From Gelidibacter japonicus (GTDB lineage: Bacteria; Bacteroidota; Bacteroidia; Flavobacteriales; Flavobacteriaceae): DNA of 64,000 nucleotides. A program made the translations under genes and the position numbers. The stretch spans positions 310,001 to 374,000 of the forward strand of contig NZ_BJKB01000002.1 of the NCBI RefSeq assembly GCF_010725055.1, read 5' to 3'. Positions 7,312 to 52,667 of this stretch are shown here, in pieces (within the stretch, counting starts at the first letter, position 1; every line of letters starts with the position of its first letter). The notes under the pieces are model-generated. The model was not told the DNA's origin, searched no databases, and was given only the letters and a program-made list of their open reading frames with translations.

Positions 7312-8193
7312 ATGAAAACAACACACAAAATCATTTTAGCAACCCTTGCTTTTTTAAGCTTTACATCATCGTTTGCCCAAAAAAGCAATCTCGAAAAAAA
7401 CCTAAAAATGTACGAACAAGTTTGGGACGACATTGTTAACCAAGGTCAGTTAGACCTCATCAACGATAAAAACTTCGACCCAAATGTTGTCCAAATCAAT
7501 CCTGCCGGAAATATTGTTGGCATCGCAGATTTCAAAACTTACTATCAAAATTTTATCACGGGTTTCTCTGACATCAAATTTACCGTTATGAAGGTCTTTG
7601 GACAAGATGATAACATCGTTAAACATTGGAAGTTTGAAGGAAAACACACAGGCGATTTTTTTGGCATTCCTGCCACGAACAAATTGGTCAATGTTGAAGG
7701 CGTTACACTCGTAAAAATGAAAGATGGACGCATAGCCCAAGAGCAGGATTTTATGGACAATTCCGTATTGATGCAACAGTTGGGATTGACTTCAAACCCA
7801 GAAAACGTCAACATTGTTGATGGCTTATACAAATCATTTGCCATAGGTGATATTCCTACCGTCTTGGCCGGTATGGATGCCAACATCGTGTGGAACGAAG
7901 CCGAAGGCAACTCCTATGCAGATGGCAACCCATATGTAGGACCGGACGCTGTGTTAAATGGTGTTTTTGCCCGTCTTGGGGCCGATCACGAGTATTTTAA
8001 ACTGCAGGACATTGAACTTCACGAGATGAGCAACAATAAAGTATTGGCAACCTTACGCTATGACGGGAAATTTAAAGACGGAAAAGCATACAATGCCCAG
8101 GCGGCCCACTTATGGACCTTGAAGGATGGAAAAGTGGTGGGGTTTCAACAATATGTGGATACCAAGAAATTGGCTGATGCGGAAAAGAGATAA
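7312..8193 (+). CDS. Exported two-domain SnoaL/ester-cyclase-like protein
   Basis: The signal peptide MKTTHKIILATLAFLSF ends near SFAQ. Domain 1 (about 30-160) contains FKTYYQNFITGFSDIKFTV and the H-W-K-F-E-G-K-H-T-G-D-F-F-G segment characteristic of the SnoaL ester cyclase group, where an Asp and a His pair with the substrate enolate. Domain 2 (about 165-290) begins NIVDGLYKSFAIGD, a ketosteroid-isomerase-like signature. Polyketide cyclases of this group close rings by aldol condensation, but most export-targeted Bacteroidota members are uncharacterised. Six bases separate it from the lipoprotein upstream. Confidence 0.78.
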   Translation: MKTTHKIILATLAFLSFTSSFAQKSNLEKNLKMYEQVWDDIVNQGQLDLINDKNFDPNVVQINPAGNIVGIADFKTYYQNFITGFSDIKFTVMKVFGQDDNIVKHWKFEGKHTGDFFGIPATNKLVNVEGVTLVKMKDGRIAQEQDFMDNSVLMQQLGLTSNPENVNIVDGLYKSFAIGDIPTVLAGMDANIVWNEAEGNSYADGNPYVGPDAVLNGVFARLGADHEYFKLQDIELHEMSNNKVLATLRYDGKFKDGKAYNAQAAHLWTLKDGKVVGFQQYVDTKKLADAEKR

Positions 8194-8214
8194 AATGAAA
8201 AACGGAGAAGCCGA

Positions 8215-8253
8215 CCTGCCTGCCGGTTTACCCTCCGTAGGAGGGCAGGCAGG
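8215..8253. repeat. Inverted repeat with 10-bp arms (CCTGCCTGCC / GGCAGGCAGG)
   Basis: Arms at 8215-8224 and 8244-8253 are exact complements. The loop itself contains CCCTCC-GTA-GGAGGG, which competes with part of the outer stem. It begins about 20 bases after the preceding stop codon, so it would form at the 3' end of that message. No T-run follows, so it is either a repeat element or a weak, factor-dependent end. Confidence 0.7.
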
Positions 8254-8294
8254 AAACCAATTAGAGTAGGCATCAAAAATTAAATATAAAAATC

Positions 8295-8564
8295 ATGACA
8301 CAAACAATCGTAACCAGACACAAAGTAGGAAATATTGACACCTGGCTGAAAGGCCATCAAGACAGACTTGATGTATTTGGACCTGCTATATCTGGCCTTA
8401 GAACATTTCAGGATGCCAACAATAAAAATTCAGTGGTATTGGTAATTGAAGTTACGGATATGGAAAAATTTAAAGCAATTTTAAATGATCCGTCTCTAAA
8501 AGCATTGAAAGACAAGCACACGGTTTTAGAACCGATAACGGTCTCCATGCCAATAGAAGTGTAA
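8295..8564 (+). CDS. Small dimeric alpha/beta-barrel-like protein
   Basis: An 89-residue cytoplasmic protein. The order strand (QTIVTRHKVG), helix (IDTWLKGHQDRLDVFG), strand (ISGLRTFQD), strand (SVVLVIEV), helix (MEKFKAILND) and a closing strand fits a single ferredoxin-like half-barrel as in ABM monooxygenases, EthD or DUF3764-type proteins. These work as dimers. No cofactor-binding residue can be named. It sits between the SnoaL-like gene and the SDR gene on the same strand. Confidence 0.7.
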   Translation: MTQTIVTRHKVGNIDTWLKGHQDRLDVFGPAISGLRTFQDANNKNSVVLVIEVTDMEKFKAILNDPSLKALKDKHTVLEPITVSMPIEV

Positions 8565-8674
8565 TGATTGGTTCTATCACTAATAACGATATACTAACGT
8601 GAAGAATATTCGAGCACATTTAAAATTTTAATTATTGCTGGAACATATTATGTAAAAAATAAATATCAAAACAC

Positions 8675-9529
8675 ATGAAAATAGTACTCATCACAGGAAC
8701 AAGCAAAGGCATAGGCCTTGAAACAGCCTTAACATTTGGTCGTGCAGGCTACAAAGTATTTGCCACCATGCGTAATCCCGAAAACGCTTCCGATTTTAAG
8801 CAAAAAATCAAAAATGAATCTTTAGACATCACGATTTCCAAAATGGATGTCGACTCCGATGCTTCCGTAAAGAAAGGTATGGATGAGATTATTCAAAAGA
8901 ATGGCTCGGTGGATGTTCTTGTCAATAATGCCGGAATTGAACGCCATGGCTCCATTGAAGAGATGTCGATGGACGATTTTCAATCCGTTATGAATACCAA
9001 TTATTTGGGAGTCCTTCGGTGTACAAAAGCGGTGTTGCCTCAAATGCGAAAAGCCAAAAATGGTTGCATTATTAATATCGCTTCAGTTTCAGGTCATATT
9101 GCCAATAGTCCGTTGGGTGCCTATGCCGCAAGTAAATTTGCACTTGAAGCCATAAGCGAGGCCCTTGCCCAAGAAATGAAACCATTTAATGTTAAGGTAG
9201 CCATCGTAGAACCTGGCATCATTAATACGCAAATGGCAAAGGATATTTCAGTGAATGCAGAATCCTTATATCCGCATTCAAAACGCCTTGCCGGCCTTTT
9301 TTCAGCATCACTTCAAACGCCAACACCTCCAACACTCGTGGCAGACAAAATCTTAGAAATTTCAGAAAGCAACACTTGGAAACTAAGACATCCCGTTGGC
9401 CCAGATGCAGCACCTTTTATTGAATGGCGCGGGTCAATGAACGATGAACAATGGATAAATTGGAATGCCACCAGTGATGAAGATTGGTATAAATCGGTTG
9501 AGCAGGATTTCGGGTTGAATGCGAGGTAG
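8675..9529 (+). CDS. Short-chain dehydrogenase/reductase
   Basis: A 284-residue classical SDR. The coenzyme motif TGTSKGIG lies at residues 7-14, the NNAG structural motif near 88, the catalytic Ser in I-A-S-V-S-G near 138 and the Y-A-A-S-K catalytic pair near 151-155, followed by PG at the usual place. The Arg in MRNP after the second strand suggests NADP(H). It should oxidise or reduce a carbonyl/alcohol in the cytoplasm. The C-terminal 60 residues (WRGSMNDEQW) are longer than in minimal SDRs and may form a lid. A truncated repeat (copy C) follows. Confidence 0.88.
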   Translation: MKIVLITGTSKGIGLETALTFGRAGYKVFATMRNPENASDFKQKIKNESLDITISKMDVDSDASVKKGMDEIIQKNGSVDVLVNNAGIERHGSIEEMSMDDFQSVMNTNYLGVLRCTKAVLPQMRKAKNGCIINIASVSGHIANSPLGAYAASKFALEAISEALAQEMKPFNVKVAIVEPGIINTQMAKDISVNAESLYPHSKRLAGLFSASLQTPTPPTLVADKILEISESNTWKLRHPVGPDAAPFIEWRGSMNDEQWINWNATSDEDWYKSVEQDFGLNAR

Positions 9530-9561
9530 ATACTAATATGTGATGGAACTTTAAACTATTC

Positions 9562-9609
9562 AATCAAGAACCTCAGGGTATTAAAATCCACTAATGAGAA
9601 TAAAATTAG
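9562..9609 (+). repeat. Interspersed repeat, copy C (internally deleted)
   Basis: The 5' end AATCAAGAACCTC joins directly to the 3' part AGGGTATTAAAATCCACTAA and then GAGAATAAAATTAG. The central 70-80 bases present in copies A and B are missing. Confidence 0.65.
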
Positions 9610-9646
9610 TCGTTTAATTTCAACAACTTAGATATATGGAAAAATT

Positions 9647-9760
9647 ATGATTTACTATTGGCTATATCTAATTTATATTTTCATCGGCTCTAAATTCTTT
9701 TGGAAACCACATGACTTCGAATCTCACCAGAAAACGGCGTGTCAATATTTTGGATTGTGA
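9647..9760 (+). pseudogene. Detached N-terminal segment of the following thioesterase, out of frame
   Basis: ATG at 9647 opens a 37-codon frame beginning MIYYWLYLIYIFIG, a single hydrophobic helix, followed by SKFFWKPHDFESHQK. It stops at 9758 while the thioesterase frame overlaps it one base over. Skipping one A in the run at 9730-9733 joins HQK directly to RRVNILDCETLRYMNN of the hotdog domain. THEM6-like thioesterases normally start with one such membrane helix, so this looks like the real beginning of the protein separated by one base. Confidence 0.5.
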
Positions 9761-10166
9761 AACCTTACGGTATATGAACAATTCCAGACACCTCAATTAT
9801 ATGGATTTTATTCGGTTTGAAATGATGTTTAGAACACCACTGTTCGACAATACGGTCAAGAAAAGCTTATATGGCATTCTGGGTTCACAAAAAATCATCT
9901 ATAAAAAATCCCTAAAAATGTGGTCGGTATTTACCATTACTCTGGTTTTGGAAGGATGGGACGATAAATGGGTCTACCACAAACAAGCTTTTAAACAGCA
10001 AAACGAGATTCGTGCTGTTGGCTATACAAAAGCAGCGTTTTGGAAAGGCAGAAACGCGCAGAATATACCCGGAATTCTTAAACATTGTGGTGTTACTATT
10101 TTCGAAATGCCCCCTACACAACAAGTACTAAACATGTTTAAAACAGATTATGAGCTTTTAAATTAA
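9711..10166 (+). CDS. Hotdog-fold acyl-CoA thioesterase, THEM6-like; N-terminus probably lost by frameshift
   Basis: A 151-residue frame with the hotdog signature RRVNILDCETLRYMNNSRHL, where the M-N-N-x-R-x-L motif marks the substrate-binding helix of 4-hydroxybenzoyl-CoA thioesterase/THEM6-type proteins. Later strands (KMWSVFTITLVLEGWDDKW) complete the fold. The apparent start MTSNLTRK is weak: the natural N-terminal membrane helix seems to be encoded in the overlapping frame from 9647. Either the protein is made in this shortened form, a sequencing error removed or added one base, or the gene is newly inactivated. In the same frame the stub of another gene follows immediately. Confidence 0.65.
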   Translation: MTSNLTRKRRVNILDCETLRYMNNSRHLNYMDFIRFEMMFRTPLFDNTVKKSLYGILGSQKIIYKKSLKMWSVFTITLVLEGWDDKWVYHKQAFKQQNEIRAVGYTKAAFWKGRNAQNIPGILKHCGVTIFEMPPTQQVLNMFKTDYELLN

Positions 10167-10172
10167 AAACAA

Positions 10173-10343
10173 TTGAGTGTTTGTATTGCGATTCAGGAAC
10201 TGCGGGAAAAGGCAAAACAGGAAATGGGAAGTAAATTTGATTTGAGAGAATTCCACAACGTCGTTCATAAAAATGGCTCGATGCCCCTGGACATATTGGA
10301 AACCGTCGTACTCAGATATATCACGGATACCAAACCCAGTTAA
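10173..10343 (+). pseudogene. C-terminal remnant of a DUF885-family protein
   Basis: The frame after the thioesterase stop reads IQELREKAKQEMGSKFDLRE, then FHNVVHKNGSMPLDILETVV and ends RYITDTKPS. This is the characteristic end of DUF885 proteins (helix, F-D-[IL]-R-E-F-H, then P-L-[DS]-[IV]-L-E). The remaining 500-odd residues of a normal DUF885 protein are absent; the piece is about 57 codons with no credible start. It is best read as a leftover of a deletion that fused the thioesterase region to the end of a lost peptidase-like gene. Confidence 0.6.
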
Positions 10344-10565
10344 GGTTCAGGGTTTTTGAATTGAGCTTAACCGCAAAGGTCGTCAAGGACGGTGCAAAGA
10401 TCGCAATTCTTAAGGAACATACTTTTTAAAACTTTGATTTCCTTGCGGTAAAATAGAGCATAATATCTTTTAGACATTTAAATTATAATTGATGAGGAGG
10501 AGTTACGAAAAACTATCTTAAAAATAATTAACTTACATCCTCTAAATTATTATTCTCTAAAACTT

Positions 10566-13500
10566 ATGAAAACGCACTATCTCCTTTCAATTTTAATTTC
10601 CTTTTTATATATCGGAACACCTCATGCACAAGAAGCTTATTTTCAAATAGACCCCACCTTAACTCCAGACGGACAGACCATAGTTTTTAGTTATGATGGC
10701 GATTTATGGAAAGTGCCTTCAAGTGGTGGCGATGCATTTAGGCTCACAGCAATGGAAGGAGAAGAAACCTTGCCGCGTATTTCACCAGACGGAAAATGGT
10801 TGGCCTTCAGCGCCACACAATATGGTAATAAGGATGTTTATGTCATGCCAATAGATGGCGGTGAGATCAATCAACTCACCTTTCATGATGCCACAGATGA
10901 TGTAGATAGCTGGTCGTGGGATTCCAAAGAAATTTATTTTACCTCATCGCGGTACAATCGTTATAGTGGTTATAAGGTTCCTGTTTCTGGTGGCACACCA
11001 ATACGGTTGTTTGAAAATTATTTCAACAATGTCCATAATGTTGTTTCCCATCCTAAAACAGACGAAATTTTCTTTAATGAAAGTTGGGAAAGCAAAAATT
11101 TCACCAATCGTAAACGCTATAAAGGCGCTTATAATCCTGATATTAAATCCTACAATCCAAAAACCAAGGCATTCAAAGAATACACCGATTATAATGGAAA
11201 AGATATGTGGGCCACCATAGATGAAAATGGGGTTATTTATTTTGTTTCCGATGAAATCAACGGGGAATATAATCTATATACTTTTAAAGATGGAGCTACT
11301 AAAACAGCCTTGACAAAATTTGAAACTTCAATCGGTTGGCCCCAAGTTAGTGCCAACGGAAATAAGATCGTGTTTACCAAAGACTATCAGATTTTCTTGT
11401 ACGACGTAGCTTCAAATAAAACTCAAAAGGTCAAGATTCTAATTAACACAAACAATACGCTCATTAAAGAGCAGGATTTTGAAACAAAGGGTAAAATCAG
11501 TACCATGTCCATATCGCCAGATAATAAGAAGATGGCATTTATTTCTCGTGGCGAACTGTTTGTATCGGACATAAAAGGTAAGTTTATCAAAAAATTAAAC
11601 ACCAATCCCAATGAGCGTGTTAAGGAAGTAAAATGGCTAAAGGATAATCGTACACTATTATATAATCAGACCGCTTCTGGATACACCAATCTCTTTACTA
11701 TTGCTGCCGATGGAACAGGTGAAGAAAAAAGACTTACCAACGAGGCAAAAAACAACGCCAGTATTGCTATAGACCATAAAATGGAACATGCGGCTTATAT
11801 AAGTGGCCGTGATGAGTTGAGACTATTGGATTTAAAAACCTTAAAAAGTACGACTATTGTAACTGATGAATTTTGGGCTCTTCGTCCGCCAGTCCCTCAA
11901 TTTTCACCGGACGATTCCTATGTTTTATACTCTGCCTTTCGCAATTTTGAACTCGATATGTTTATTTATCATATCGCAACCAAAGAAATTATAAACTTAA
12001 CCCAAACTGGGGTTTCAGAAAGTAATCCCACATGGTCTCCAGATGGAAAATACATCTACTTTCAATCTAACTTAACGCAACCTTCGTTCCCAAGAGGTAT
12101 TGGAGATACACATATTTACAGAATGGCTTTAGACACCTATGACGCACCTTTTAAATCGAATAAGTTTGACGAACTTTTTAAAGAAGACGAAAAAAAGGAT
12201 AAGGATAAATCTGAGAAGAAAGATAAAGACAAAAAAGAAAAAGATAGCATCAAAGAACCCATTTCAATCACCATCAATAAAAAAGGACTGATGGATCGTA
12301 TCGAACGCATCAGTCCTTCATTTGGGTCACAAAATGACCCTTATGTCATTACAAAGGATGAAACGACCTATGTGTATTATGTTTCTAATCACGACCAAGG
12401 AAAATATAAATTATGGAGAACCATTATTAAACCTTTTGAAGAAAACAAAACTGAAAAAGTAGATGACCAAGTGATTAGGGACGGTCAACTGGAGTCCACT
12501 AAAGACGGATATTATGCCTTGTTGAATGGCACTATCCATACCATGGACTTAAAAAGCAACAAGCTTGAAAAAATTGAAACAGAAGCCACATTTCGAAAAA
12601 ATCTGGCAAATGAATTTAATCAGATGTTTTTTGAAGCCTGGGCAGGTTTTGAGAGTAATTATTACGATGAAAATTTCCACGGAGAAAACTGGCAACAACT
12701 TAGAGATAAGTACGCTCACTTTCTCCCCTACCTTACAAAACGCTCACAATTGAGTATGTTATTTAACGATATGCTTGGTGAGTTAAATACCTCCCATGTT
12801 GGATTTAATACCTCAGGGAAAGAAGATGAGACCTATTACGGCACTTCCACTTCAGAATCGGGAATCATTTTCTCTCAAGACAACCCTTATAAAGTAGCAC
12901 ATATTGTTAGTAAAAGTCCTGCGGATATCACTGGAAAAGACATTAAACTAGGTGATATTTTAACCAAAGTCAATGGGAAGTCGGTAGATTTCAAAACAAA
13001 TAGAGAAGCCTATTTTTCTGGACCATCATTGGATAACGAAATGCAGTTAACCTTTAAAAGAAGCGGCAAGGACATTACTGTAAACCTGCATCCAATTGCT
13101 ACCAGAGAGTTTAAAGATTTGCTGTATGATGAATGGGTTGAAGACAATCAGAAGTATGTAGATGAAAAAAGCAATGATAAAATAGCTTATGTCCACATGA
13201 AAAATATGAGCGGTAGTGAACTCGATAATTTTATGAAGGAGATGGTTTCTGAAGCCTATAGAAAGGACGCTTTAATATTGGACTTAAGAAATAATACAGG
13301 TGGAAACGTGCACGACGCCGTTTTACAGTTCTTATCCCAAAAACCTTACGCCCAATGGAAATATAGAAATGGAAAATTGGCACCACAACCCAATTTTGGA
13401 CCTGCAGCAAAACCGATCGTTTTACTGATCAATGAGCAATCATTAAGTGATGCCGAAGTTACAGCTGCCGGTTTTAAAGAATTGGGCTTAGGAAAAATCA

Positions 13501-47649: not shown

Positions 47650-48630
47650 ATGACAACAACTTATAAAGTATTAATTATTGGTGCAGGACCTATTGGCATT
47701 GCCTGCGCATTGGAATGCAAAAAGAAAAATTGGAACTATGTGGTTATTGAAAAAGGTGCATTGACCAACTCGTTGTTCAATTATCCAAAAAACATGACCT
47801 TTTTTTCAACTTCTGAAAAGCTCGAAATTGATGAGATCCCATTTATCAGCATCAACCCAAAACCCAATAGAGATGAAGCCCTCGAATATTATAGACGTGT
47901 GGCGACCTCAAACGAATTGAACATTCACCTATACGAGGAGGTTTTAACAATAAAGAAATCAAATGAACATTTTGAAGTCACAACTTCCAAAACACAATAT
48001 CGTGTCGACAAAGTAATTATCGCTTCTGGTTTTTACGACATCCCAACGCTATTGGATGTTCCGGGAGAAGATTTTCCAAAAGTCACCCATTATTATAATG
48101 AAGCGCATCCATATGCCATGCAAAATGTGGTTGTGGTTGGGGCAAGCAATTCTTCCGTAGATGCAGCCCTCGAGATTTGGCGGAAAGGTGGAAATGTAAC
48201 CATGGTCATAAGAGGTTCGGAAATAGGTGAACGTGTAAAGTATTGGGTAAAACCAGATATCATCAATCGCATTAAGGAAGGAAGCATTAAGGCCTATTTT
48301 AATTCAGAAGTCGTTGAAATTGAAGAAACAGAATTAACCATCAAAACACCAAATGGAGAGATGACTTTAGCCAATGATTTTGTAGTGGCCCTTACGGGGT
48401 ATCGCCCTAACTTTGAGTTCTTAATAAATTCAGGAATTAAACTCTCCAATGATAATGCCCGCTTACCACAATATGATCCCGACACTATGGAAACCAATAT
48501 TTCTGGACTATATTTAGCTGGTGTTATTTGTGGTGGGATGGAAACCCACAAGTGGTTTATCGAAAATTCAAGGATTCATGCCAAAATAATCACCGAACAT
48601 ATAGAAGCATTAAGTACTAAAACCGAATAA
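47650..48630 (+). CDS. ypdA: YpdA-family bacillithiol disulfide reductase-like flavoprotein
   Basis: A 326-residue FAD/NADPH-dependent reductase. FAD motif GAGPIG at 11-16, N-Y-P-K-N-M-T-F-F-S-T-S-E-x-L-E-I near 48-64 (diagnostic for YpdA), NADPH motif VVGASNSSVDAA near 158-169, and a C-terminal G-L-Y-L-A-G-V-I-C-G-G segment. In Firmicutes, YpdA reduces bacillithiol disulfide using one active-site Cys; some Bacteroidota also make bacillithiol. It lies in a tight run with the MFS gene and the gene at 48634 (3-bp gaps). Confidence 0.9.
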   Translation: MTTTYKVLIIGAGPIGIACALECKKKNWNYVVIEKGALTNSLFNYPKNMTFFSTSEKLEIDEIPFISINPKPNRDEALEYYRRVATSNELNIHLYEEVLTIKKSNEHFEVTTSKTQYRVDKVIIASGFYDIPTLLDVPGEDFPKVTHYYNEAHPYAMQNVVVVGASNSSVDAALEIWRKGGNVTMVIRGSEIGERVKYWVKPDIINRIKEGSIKAYFNSEVVEIEETELTIKTPNGEMTLANDFVVALTGYRPNFEFLINSGIKLSNDNARLPQYDPDTMETNISGLYLAGVICGGMETHKWFIENSRIHAKIITEHIEALSTKTE

Positions 48631-50231: not shown

Positions 50232-50771
50232 TTAGTTGCAGACTTTGCAGTGTTCTTTTTCCTGCAACTCTCCAACCAAATAGCCATCGTCATTGATTTT
50301 AAAATCACAACATTCTACAAAACCTTGCGCAATGAGTTTTCTTGCACGTTGGATCTGCGATTTCACGGTTGGTAGAGGTAAATCCAATCTCTCTGAGATT
50401 TGAGTTTGTTTCAAACCTTGGATATCAGCCAAAATTAAGGGTTTTCTATACTTTTTAGGCAAGGCCTTAATGATACCTCGCAAACAATCTTCTTTGGTAT
50501 GGTCAGAATGGGTATACTCTTCAACAATGTGCTTTTCTTCTATTGAATAGTTGAGATTGTTTTGCCTAAAATAATCCATCACCGTATAACGGGCAATAGA
50601 GAATACCCAGGCTTTAATTTTATTTTCGTTTTTTAAAGTATCCAATTTTACATGGACTTTTATAAACGTTTCCTGTAGTAAATCATCAGTTATAACCTCA
50701 TCATTCACTTTACTTAGTATAAAGTGTCTGATATCTTGCGCATATAAATCCCAAACTGTTTTCGTTTTCAT
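50232..50771 (-). CDS. sigZ: SigZ-type ECF RNA polymerase sigma factor with Cys-rich C-terminus
   Basis: A 179-residue ECF sigma factor. Region 2 is at about 10-75 (LLQETFIKVHVKLDTLKNEN, KAWVFSIARYTVMDYFR), region 4 at about 95-150 (ALPKKYRKPLILADIQGLKQ, PLPTVKSQIQRARK). A 29-residue extension after region 4 carries Cys154-Cys155 and H-C-K-V-C at 174-178, a possible metal- or redox-sensing site, as in SigZ-like proteins. No anti-sigma factor is adjacent. The gene for an 11-cysteine miniprotein lies 77 bases upstream on the same strand. Confidence 0.87.
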   Translation of the reverse strand: MKTKTVWDLYAQDIRHFILSKVNDEVITDDLLQETFIKVHVKLDTLKNENKIKAWVFSIARYTVMDYFRQNNLNYSIEEKHIVEEYTHSDHTKEDCLRGIIKALPKKYRKPLILADIQGLKQTQISERLDLPLPTVKSQIQRARKLIAQGFVECCDFKINDDGYLVGELQEKEHCKVCN

Positions 50772-50782
50772 ATAAGACCATT

Positions 50783-50827
50783 AAAAAAGAGTCCTCCTAG
50801 TATAAAATTACTAAAACAGACTCTTTT
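50783..50827 (-). terminator. Hairpin between the Cys-rich miniprotein gene and sigZ
   Basis: AAAAGAGTC (50785-50793) pairs with GACTCTTTT (50819-50827), and on the minus strand the stem is followed by TTTTTT. The loop is long (25 bases), so it may be a partial terminator that sets the ratio of the two genes. Confidence 0.6.
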
Positions 50828-50848
50828 AATTAACATTTTAAATTAAGC

Positions 50849-50950
50849 TTAACAGTTGCAATTTTTACAGGAACAGTTTTCGCAAGTACATGCAGCACAA
50901 TTTCCTTTTTGACAACTGTCACAATCGCAGAAACATTCTTTATTATTCAT
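50849..50950 (-). CDS. Metallothionein-like miniprotein, 11 Cys in 33 residues
   Basis: ATG at 50950 (minus strand) encodes MNNKECFCDCDSCQKGNC followed by AACTCENCSCKNCNC and a stop at 50849-50851. Cysteines stand at 6, 8, 10, 13, 18, 21, 23, 26, 28, 31 and 33, in C-x-C and C-x-x-C spacing. No hydrophobic core is possible, so the chain must fold around metal ions (zinc, copper or cadmium) or serve as a thiol store. It directly precedes sigZ on the same strand. The composition makes chance coding very unlikely. Confidence 0.75.
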   Translation of the reverse strand: MNNKECFCDCDSCQKGNCAACTCENCSCKNCNC

Positions 50951-51123
50951 GATCTATAATTTTAAGGTTCATCTAATAGACGTGAAAAGATGGATAAAGA
51001 TGCATTTTTTCAAACTTTTTTATAAACTTAGGTCAATAACGAACCGAAACCCATTGCTAAACCAGGTTTTTCCTAAAATAACGTAGTAATGGGAATTGTT
51101 TAAACATGAGAACAGGAACTATT

Positions 51124-51681
51124 CTAATGCCATATGTCAGGATTTGCATCGATATAATTTGAAATGTCTTCATAAGATTTTTGATGTCTAATAATATGAT
51201 CATGAAATGATCTTTTCCAAGCGAAATCTTTAAAACCAATACTATGGATTATTTTAGAAGACGTTGTTTTAAAGGCCCCAATTAAACTTGAAAGCGATTT
51301 GATTTTAATTGAAAGATGCTCTATTCTTAAACGATCAATTTCTATTATAAGGTGGACATGATTTGGCATGACTACATAATGATGTACCAAAACATATGGA
51401 TATTGGCCCTTCAATCAATTGATTTGATTTTGGACAATCAATCCATAAGCATTCAATTCCATTTTTTGATTGGATGGATTCGATTCTTTCAAATTGTATT
51501 CTTTCGAAACCAATTTATCATAATTCGCCACAGATTGCGCGCTTACGGACAGGTTACGACCTGTCCCTTCCACAAATTCCCCAAAACAGCAGACCATATT
51601 TTGCACACAAATTGTGACGAAATATAAATTATCGCGCGAATAATCATATCCTTTTAACCGATTTCTCTTACGATTTTTCAT
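51124..51681 (-). mobile_element. REP-associated tyrosine transposase (RAYT, IS200/IS605-type Y1), frameshifted
   Basis: The protein starts MKNRKRNRLKGYDYSRDNLY then FVTICVQNM, the normal RAYT opening, and continues to LIVQNQIN where it stops at 51415. The next frame resumes at once with LKGQYPYVLVHHYVVMPNHV, including the HUH pair in N-H-V-H, and ends SNYIDANPDIWH with the candidate nucleophilic Tyr. The original must have read V-Q-N-Q-x-x-x-L-K-G-Q-Y, so a small indel near 51412 breaks the gene. A perfect palindrome (51547-51566) is translated inside it as GTGRNLSVS. It is likely inactive unless frameshifting restores it. Confidence 0.8.
51547..51566. repeat. REP-like hairpin GGACAGGT-TACG-ACCTGTCC inside the transposase gene
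   Basis: Eight-bp arms, four-base loop. The same outer sequence GGACAG...CTGTCC occurs at 51748-51767. Its presence within the reading frame adds residues not seen in ordinary RAYT proteins. Confidence 0.75.
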
Positions 51682-52389: not shown

Positions 52390-52667
52390 GAAAATGTGGT
52401 TCAGCAAGTGTCGGCTTATCATCAGAAGATCCCACCCAAAAGCGGGATAAGCGACTCACACACATTTTCCCTAAAAGGAAAATGTGGTTCAGCAAGTATC
52501 GGCTTGACATCAGAAGATCCCGCCCAAAAGCGGGATAAGCGACTCACACACATTTTCCCTAAAAGGAAAATGTGGTTCAGCAAGTGTCGGCTTGACATCA
52601 GAAGATCCCGCCCAAAAGCGGGATAAGCGACTCACACACATTTTCTCTAAAAGGAAAATGTGGTTCG
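52390..52667 (-). repeat. Tandem array, three 88-bp units plus a partial, at the 3' end of icmF
   Basis: Units start at 52390, 52478 and 52566, and a 14-base partial at 52654, with only a few base differences. Each contains a 10-bp hairpin CACATTTTCC-CTAAAA-GGAAAATGTG (for example 52461-52486) and a smaller CCCGC-CCAAAA-GCGGG. The last hairpin ends nine bases before the icmF stop codon position, so the array is the 3' untranslated region of icmF. Confidence 0.93.

Follow-up and report, generated by a model that had tools for sequence, protein, structure and literature searches.

A conserved unit of a cysteine-rich miniprotein and a SigZ-like sigma factor in Flavobacteriaceae, and its possible role in sensing thiophilic metal(loid)s or thiol stress

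Does a 33-residue, cysteine-rich reading frame directly 5' of a sigma factor gene in Gelidibacter japonicus encode a working protein, and what ties it to its neighbour? The pair lies in a window of 64,000 nucleotides, the whole stretch of DNA analysed here (assembly GCF_010725055.1, contig NZ_BJKB01000002.1, positions 310,001 to 374,000). An initial annotation had described a cysteine-rich miniprotein ORF 5' of a SigZ-type sigma factor gene with no anti-sigma gene present. The open reading frames and their translations confirm this arrangement, and no anti-sigma domain was found among the four neighbouring proteins scanned. On the minus strand, the promoter-like block, the cysteine-rich ORF, the hairpin and the sigma factor gene follow one another from 5' to 3':

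50960..51006, minus strand: promoter-like block TGCATCTTT-N13-CGTCTA with flank, kept in relatives; profile score 45.3 bits
50849..50950, minus strand: miniprotein ORF of 33 aa with 11 Cys, stop codon included
50780..50834, minus strand: hairpin between the miniprotein and sigma factor genes, from fold z-score, relatives and covariation
50232..50771, minus strand: SigZ-like extracytoplasmic function (ECF) sigma factor gene, 179 aa
50484..50501, minus strand: sigma2-sigma4 linker of the sigma factor with H91 and C96, invariant in 65 sigma factors
50235..50312, minus strand: C-terminal tail of the sigma factor with C154, C155, C175 and C178, invariant in 65 sigma factors

Elsewhere in the window, two adjoining ORFs in different frames occupy 51124-51681 (minus strand), and we take them to resemble a broken REP-associated (IS200-like) transposase. 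Near-identical copies of a unit of about 85 bases, with short ORFs overlapping on both strands, are found at 52390-52640.

Comparison with relatives showed that the promoter-like block, miniprotein, hairpin and sigma factor gene form one conserved unit. The sigma factor occurs in 9/9 genomes of the genus and, at E-values up to 1e-25, in 85 of 397 family genomes; 52 genomes with a sigma factor of at least 139 bits make up clade 1, and the remaining 36 matches score at most 114 bits. A miniprotein profile matched 62 of the 397 family genomes, in one copy each, and 51 hold both genes (sigma factor 52, miniprotein 62; Fisher p 3.3e-52, uncorrected for kinship). In the lone sigma-only genome, G195, the sigma factor gene contains stops and the miniprotein is disrupted. 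A cysteine-rich miniprotein lies within 450 nt of the sigma factor in 56/56 clade-1 loci (the broken sigma factor locus of G195, L048, was dropped from this set, and G054 has a sigma factor fragment near a contig end). In each of the 80 best named relatives, with identities of 55-84%, the miniprotein is likewise upstream of the sigma factor. They include Gelidibacter, Winogradskyella, Bizionia, Olleya, Tenacibaculum, Kordia and others; many of these genomes are shared with the family survey, and the two sets are not independent. The initial annotation was to be given up if no conserved linkage emerged; with the pair in 51/52 sigma factor genomes and 80/80 named relatives, the linkage itself is near certain. 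Among the 36 matches of at most 114 bits, 18 loci at 105-114 bits (the clade-2 range) were fetched; 14 of these show the same arrangement with a different upstream miniprotein (37-41 aa, 14 Cys), and a further locus has a cysteine-rich miniprotein downstream.

The ORF translates as MNNKECFCDCDSCQKGNCAACTCENCSCKNCNC, one-third of which is cysteine (11/33). Its pattern, CxCxCxxC-x3/4-CxxCxCxxCxCxxCxC, is fitted by 80/80 miniproteins of the named relatives; the cysteines are separated by one to four residues, none being contiguous, and the non-cysteine residues G16, T22 and N32 are also conserved. Codon analysis covered 54 of 81 miniproteins, the other 27 being left out for a length other than 33 aa. 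In these 54, pN/pS is 0.28, and both TGT and TGC are used at 10/11 Cys positions; judged from such codon comparisons, the miniprotein is under purifying selection. Within 450 nt of the sigma factor, cysteine-rich miniprotein ORFs number about 1.1 per kb, against 0.007-0.017 per kb elsewhere in the fetched loci. A chance ORF is rejected by the 80/80 conservation, the purifying selection and this local enrichment. Conserved Cys-x-Cys spacing in a small protein is the mark of a metallothionein in the functional sense, and the miniprotein has it. A search of Pfam and NCBIfam for any metallothionein family gave no match to the miniprotein at E-values up to 0.1, although a query so short and of such low complexity makes this a weak test. 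A profile search of the PDB listed a single sequence, 1m0j (E 3.7, not significant), which we take to be the copper metallothionein of Neurospora crassa.

Eleven genomes carry the miniprotein without the sigma factor (none at E-values up to 1e-25, none adjoining the miniprotein), although several of them are small or incomplete (completeness 66-99), which makes the absence less certain there. The frame is open with 11 Cys in 9/11; G095 has 8 Cys, and G333 has an in-frame TGA. The DNA 5' of the miniprotein is at background matrix score in 10/11, with a decayed promoter at 9.0 in G095. G228 and G095 retain downstream an Lrp-type gene like that at other loci, suggesting loss of the sigma factor in place. 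The intact miniprotein without a sigma factor in nine genomes, together with purifying selection, indicates that the miniprotein has a function of its own.

The hairpin placed between the two genes by the initial annotation proved to be conserved. The gap folds at -18 kcal/mol (z -2.95; 0/200 shuffles equally stable), and a hairpin of eight or more near-stacked pairs is present in 68/68 relatives with a gap of at least 25 nt (median z -4.5; 67/68 below -2); the gap is only 3-4 nt in two loci. Across 18 relatives, 9 of the 17 pairs change on both sides, giving a covariation score of 0.463 that was reached by 0/500 shuffles, with slid versions at or below 0.141. A terminator rule (loop 3-8) reported one site, inside the sigma factor gene, and not this hairpin, and Rfam returned no match at gathering scores. 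Because a T-rich tail (five or more T in the next eight bases) follows only 34/68 hairpins, the structure is read as a leaky terminator or a 3'-end stabiliser, either of which would favour the miniprotein over the sigma factor. At 50782-50827 (minus strand), most of the 18 relatives preserve the sequence of the hairpin top, TTTAGTA-N6-TACTAAA, and the lower stem covaries; the preserved top might be recognised by a protein or an RNase, or might act as a DNA operator.

A shared promoter motif links both genes and bears out their association. Profile R1, with which 150 of the several thousand candidates in each genome were scored and weak targets may therefore be missed, finds its sole strong site in the window's genome at the operon (45.3 bits). 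In 26/26 genomes it finds one strong site (30.7-51.6 bits), always at the operon, and the next best anywhere reaches 19.2 bits. The CGTCTA part starts 30-35 nt 5' of the miniprotein in 49/54 clade-1 loci with a pattern match, and two further loci of the 56 carry the pattern with a one-base departure. A position matrix scores at least 13.8 in 56/56 clade-1 loci, which is circular in that 40 of them were its training set, and at least 1.7 in 14/14 clade-2 loci from outside that set; the background maximum is -3.0 (about 1500 windows). A stricter pattern gave 29 sites in 35 genomes, 27 of them at the locus (control 1). When 15 genomes that carry clade-2 units were searched with a related pattern, 14 sites emerged, 10 of them at the miniprotein (reversed control 5). 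In the window's own genome, the loose pattern gave 2 sites against 2 in the reversed control, and a broad regulon was not found with the loose pattern, the stricter pattern or profile R1. A generic promoter scan returned 13 promoter-like sites versus 9.5 expected. We infer from the motif that SigZ uses the block as its promoter for the operon, and the sigma factor likely drives the miniprotein.

The best NCBIfam matches of the sigma factor are the SigZ models NF007215 (E 3.2e-51) and TIGR02959 (E 3e-47), both over the full length and both below their equivalog cut-offs (173.9 of 212 bits and 160.6 of 168.65 bits, respectively). The NF007215 cut-off is passed by 0/395 class genomes, and the SigZ model also matches in Bacillus subtilis and Bacteroides ihuae. 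Like an ECF sigma factor, the protein consists of regions 2 and 4 alone, matched by PF04542 and PF08281 at scores above the gathering threshold, and its fold and PDB matches are ordinary ECF sigma factors. Metal sensing had been assigned earlier to the tail, FVECCDFKINDDGYLVGELQEKEHCKVCN, with its motifs C-C and H-C-x-x-C. The cysteines of both motifs are invariant in 65 sigma factors, whereas the histidine is not conserved, and the probable sensor takes in the linker residues as well as the tail. Clade-2 sigma factors have a linker CC and no linker His, and most distant SigZ-like sigma factors keep linker C96 and the CC but not H91 (L048 and L060 were left out of this comparison across clades). 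Five sigma factors have a C-x-P-L tail; four of them are without linker Cys, and a cysteine-rich miniprotein is near 0/5. In an AlphaFold model (mean pLDDT 85.4, pTM 0.47), which is too uncertain to show whether linker and tail meet in one site, the last helix closes with the CC and a short two-stranded turn comes next. The sigma factor cysteines could also be a structural zinc site.

The survey of the class gave 31 matches, from which 26 loci were read, 20 of them with long flanks. A cysteine-rich miniprotein lies within 450 nt of the sigma factor in 9/20 of these distant loci, compared with about 0.3 predicted from the flanks, where 4 occur in 235 kb, and these miniproteins are of unlike sequence designs. 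In L070, a locus of a family genome, a distant SigZ-like sigma factor has downstream of it a 45-aa ORF with 11 Cys and yet another design, at about 584-722 nt from the sigma factor start. With a looser class pattern, composed after the sequences were seen, a similar promoter was found before 7/8 class miniproteins, including downstream or convergent ones with their own promoter, and before 6/20 distant class sigma factors (flanks: 5 sites in 235 kb). Eight of the nine miniproteins entered this check, L169 being dropped as a GTG-start ORF that looked spurious. The fixed-spacing clade-1 matrix was above background in only 5/8 class miniproteins and 3/20 class sigma factors. A genome-wide pattern gave 18 sites in 24 distant class genomes, 14 beside the sigma factor and 4 elsewhere (reversed control 8), and the genes behind these sites include sigma factors and four cysteine-rich miniproteins.

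Some distant loci also carry arsenic and glutathione genes, each link resting on single or few loci and the family scans of neighbours covering the 25 commonest families. A SigZ-type motif precedes the arsenite methyltransferase gene arsM (L310 657-1457, minus strand), a MATE transporter gene followed by gshAB (L158 about 7895-11630, plus strand) and, in two genomes that share a genus, the gene of a PAP2-domain protein (L304 and L305; scanned as L171 5767-6768, minus strand). Furthermore, SigZ ends arsR-arsC-aquaporin sets in L164 and L166, the latter also with arsM, and arsM stands beside SigZ in L161. Beside 39 clade-1 loci, no metal or arsenic genes recurred and only general shared synteny was seen. 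A putative bacillithiol disulfide reductase of the YpdA family (TIGR04018) is encoded at 47650-48630 (plus strand) of the window.

Taken as a whole, the locus is rather probably a self-contained stress switch, in which SigZ would be a one-component sensor and activator driving a metallothionein-like miniprotein and itself. A thiophilic metal(loid) signal and a metallothionein role of the miniprotein are suggested by the sets of cysteines, by the precedent of CorE and by the genes for arsenic and glutathione functions that lie near distant relatives. The linker Cys (with His in clade 1) and the tail Cys would bind a thiophilic metal(loid) such as Cu(I), Cd/Zn or As(III); as an alternative input, the sigma factor cysteines would react in thiol stress. 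The signal at the thiol groups would enable SigZ to act with RNA polymerase on the one strong promoter it has, and the first product, the 11-Cys miniprotein, would chelate the metal and turn the signal off. The hairpin would end or protect most transcripts after the short miniprotein gene, so that much miniprotein and little sigma factor would be made and self-activation would be bounded. From the earlier interpretation, the linkage and the hairpin are retained, and the shared promoter motif supports the tie between miniprotein and sigma factor; the location of the sensor is corrected and the tail His is discarded.

The arrangement of a short ORF with Cys codons and a hairpin before a regulatory gene would also suit a leader peptide, on which ribosomes would slow at Cys codons when charged tRNA-Cys is scarce, the hairpin then permitting sigZ expression in response to cysteine supply. 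Mycobacterium smegmatis ORFs with contiguous Cys codons offer a precedent in the excerpt of PMC9031893. Contiguous Cys codons and an ORF that serves only the downstream gene are the marks of such an attenuator, and neither was found here: the miniprotein Cys are non-contiguous and of fixed spacing, G16, T22 and N32 are conserved, the ORF is intact without sigma factor or hairpin in nine of the 11 miniprotein-only genomes, and in distant loci miniproteins occur 3' of the sigma factor gene or convergent with it, under a promoter of their own. This protein-level constraint, the persistence without the sigma factor and the positions in distant loci disfavour a leader peptide alone, which we regard as distinctly improbable. 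Less probable still is a miniprotein that binds the sigma factor directly as a small metal-dependent anti-sigma peptide; the 56/56 clade-1 loci with no sigma factor lacking a miniprotein and the want of anti-sigma domains in neighbouring proteins would fit it, whereas the same nine genomes and the unlike miniproteins that accompany distant sigma factors speak against it.

Of the alternatives, electrophile or oxidative thiol stress has the better claim, although it too is unlikely; a disulfide in the sigma factor would be the switch and the miniprotein a thiol buffer. The motif before MATE-gshAB in one distant genome and the YpdA-like gene in the window agree with it, and YpdA-like genes stand at 8/39 sigZ loci, but this looks like mere shared synteny. 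Metal-thiolate proteins typically show densely spaced CxC motifs, and their presence in the miniprotein argues against this reading, as do the arsenic genes near distant relatives.

The SigZ-like sigma factors of Bacteroidota may, as a tentative generalisation that we hold a little less readily than its converse, be one-component thiol-metal sensors whose dedicated output is cysteine-rich miniproteins built to several dissimilar plans. The regulon would, in Flavobacteriaceae, have shrunk to one promoter, leaving a minimal homeostat of one metallothionein and the sigma factor itself, closed by metal competition between both. If true, this would give SigZ-like sigma factors a role, name a miniprotein family that has no Pfam or NCBIfam model, make a promoter motif available to find further cases, and provide a minimal metal-homeostasis loop open to direct test. 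The set of miniprotein, sigma factor and promoter in many marine flavobacteria looks like a means of making the miniprotein only when needed. In the open-licence papers searched, no sigma factor was found described as serving a metallothionein-like peptide as its dedicated target.

Several known systems resemble parts of this unit. SigZ of Bacillus subtilis, with TIGR02959 and NF007215, is the best family match and extends over the full length, yet scores below the cut-offs. The presumed copper metallothionein 1m0j is, like the miniprotein, a small CxC-rich peptide (match E 3.7). The Cys-responsive leader ORFs of mycobacteria, as excerpted in PMC9031893, share a short ORF with Cys codons 5' of an operon gene (Canestrari et al., 2020), and differ from the miniprotein in its non-contiguous Cys, its constraint at the protein level and its retention without the downstream gene. 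In ArsD, As(III) is bound by a vicinal Cys pair and a third Cys, according to the excerpt of PMC12607644. The excerpt of PMC8999054 describes CorE and CorE2 of Myxococcus xanthus (former ECF44; ECF238) as metal-dependent ECF sigma factors with a Cys-rich C-terminal domain and a linker CXC. Like the sigma factor here, which has four invariant tail Cys in 65 sigma factors, they carry Cys in both the C-terminal extension and the sigma2-sigma4 linker, with no anti-sigma factor found. Instead of CXC, the linker here has H-x4-C (clade 1) or CC (clade 2). Unlike CorE and CorE2 as that excerpt presents them, the SigZ-like sigma factor has a tail of about 25 residues with four Cys, and its evident target would be a cysteine-rich miniprotein together with the sigma factor itself.
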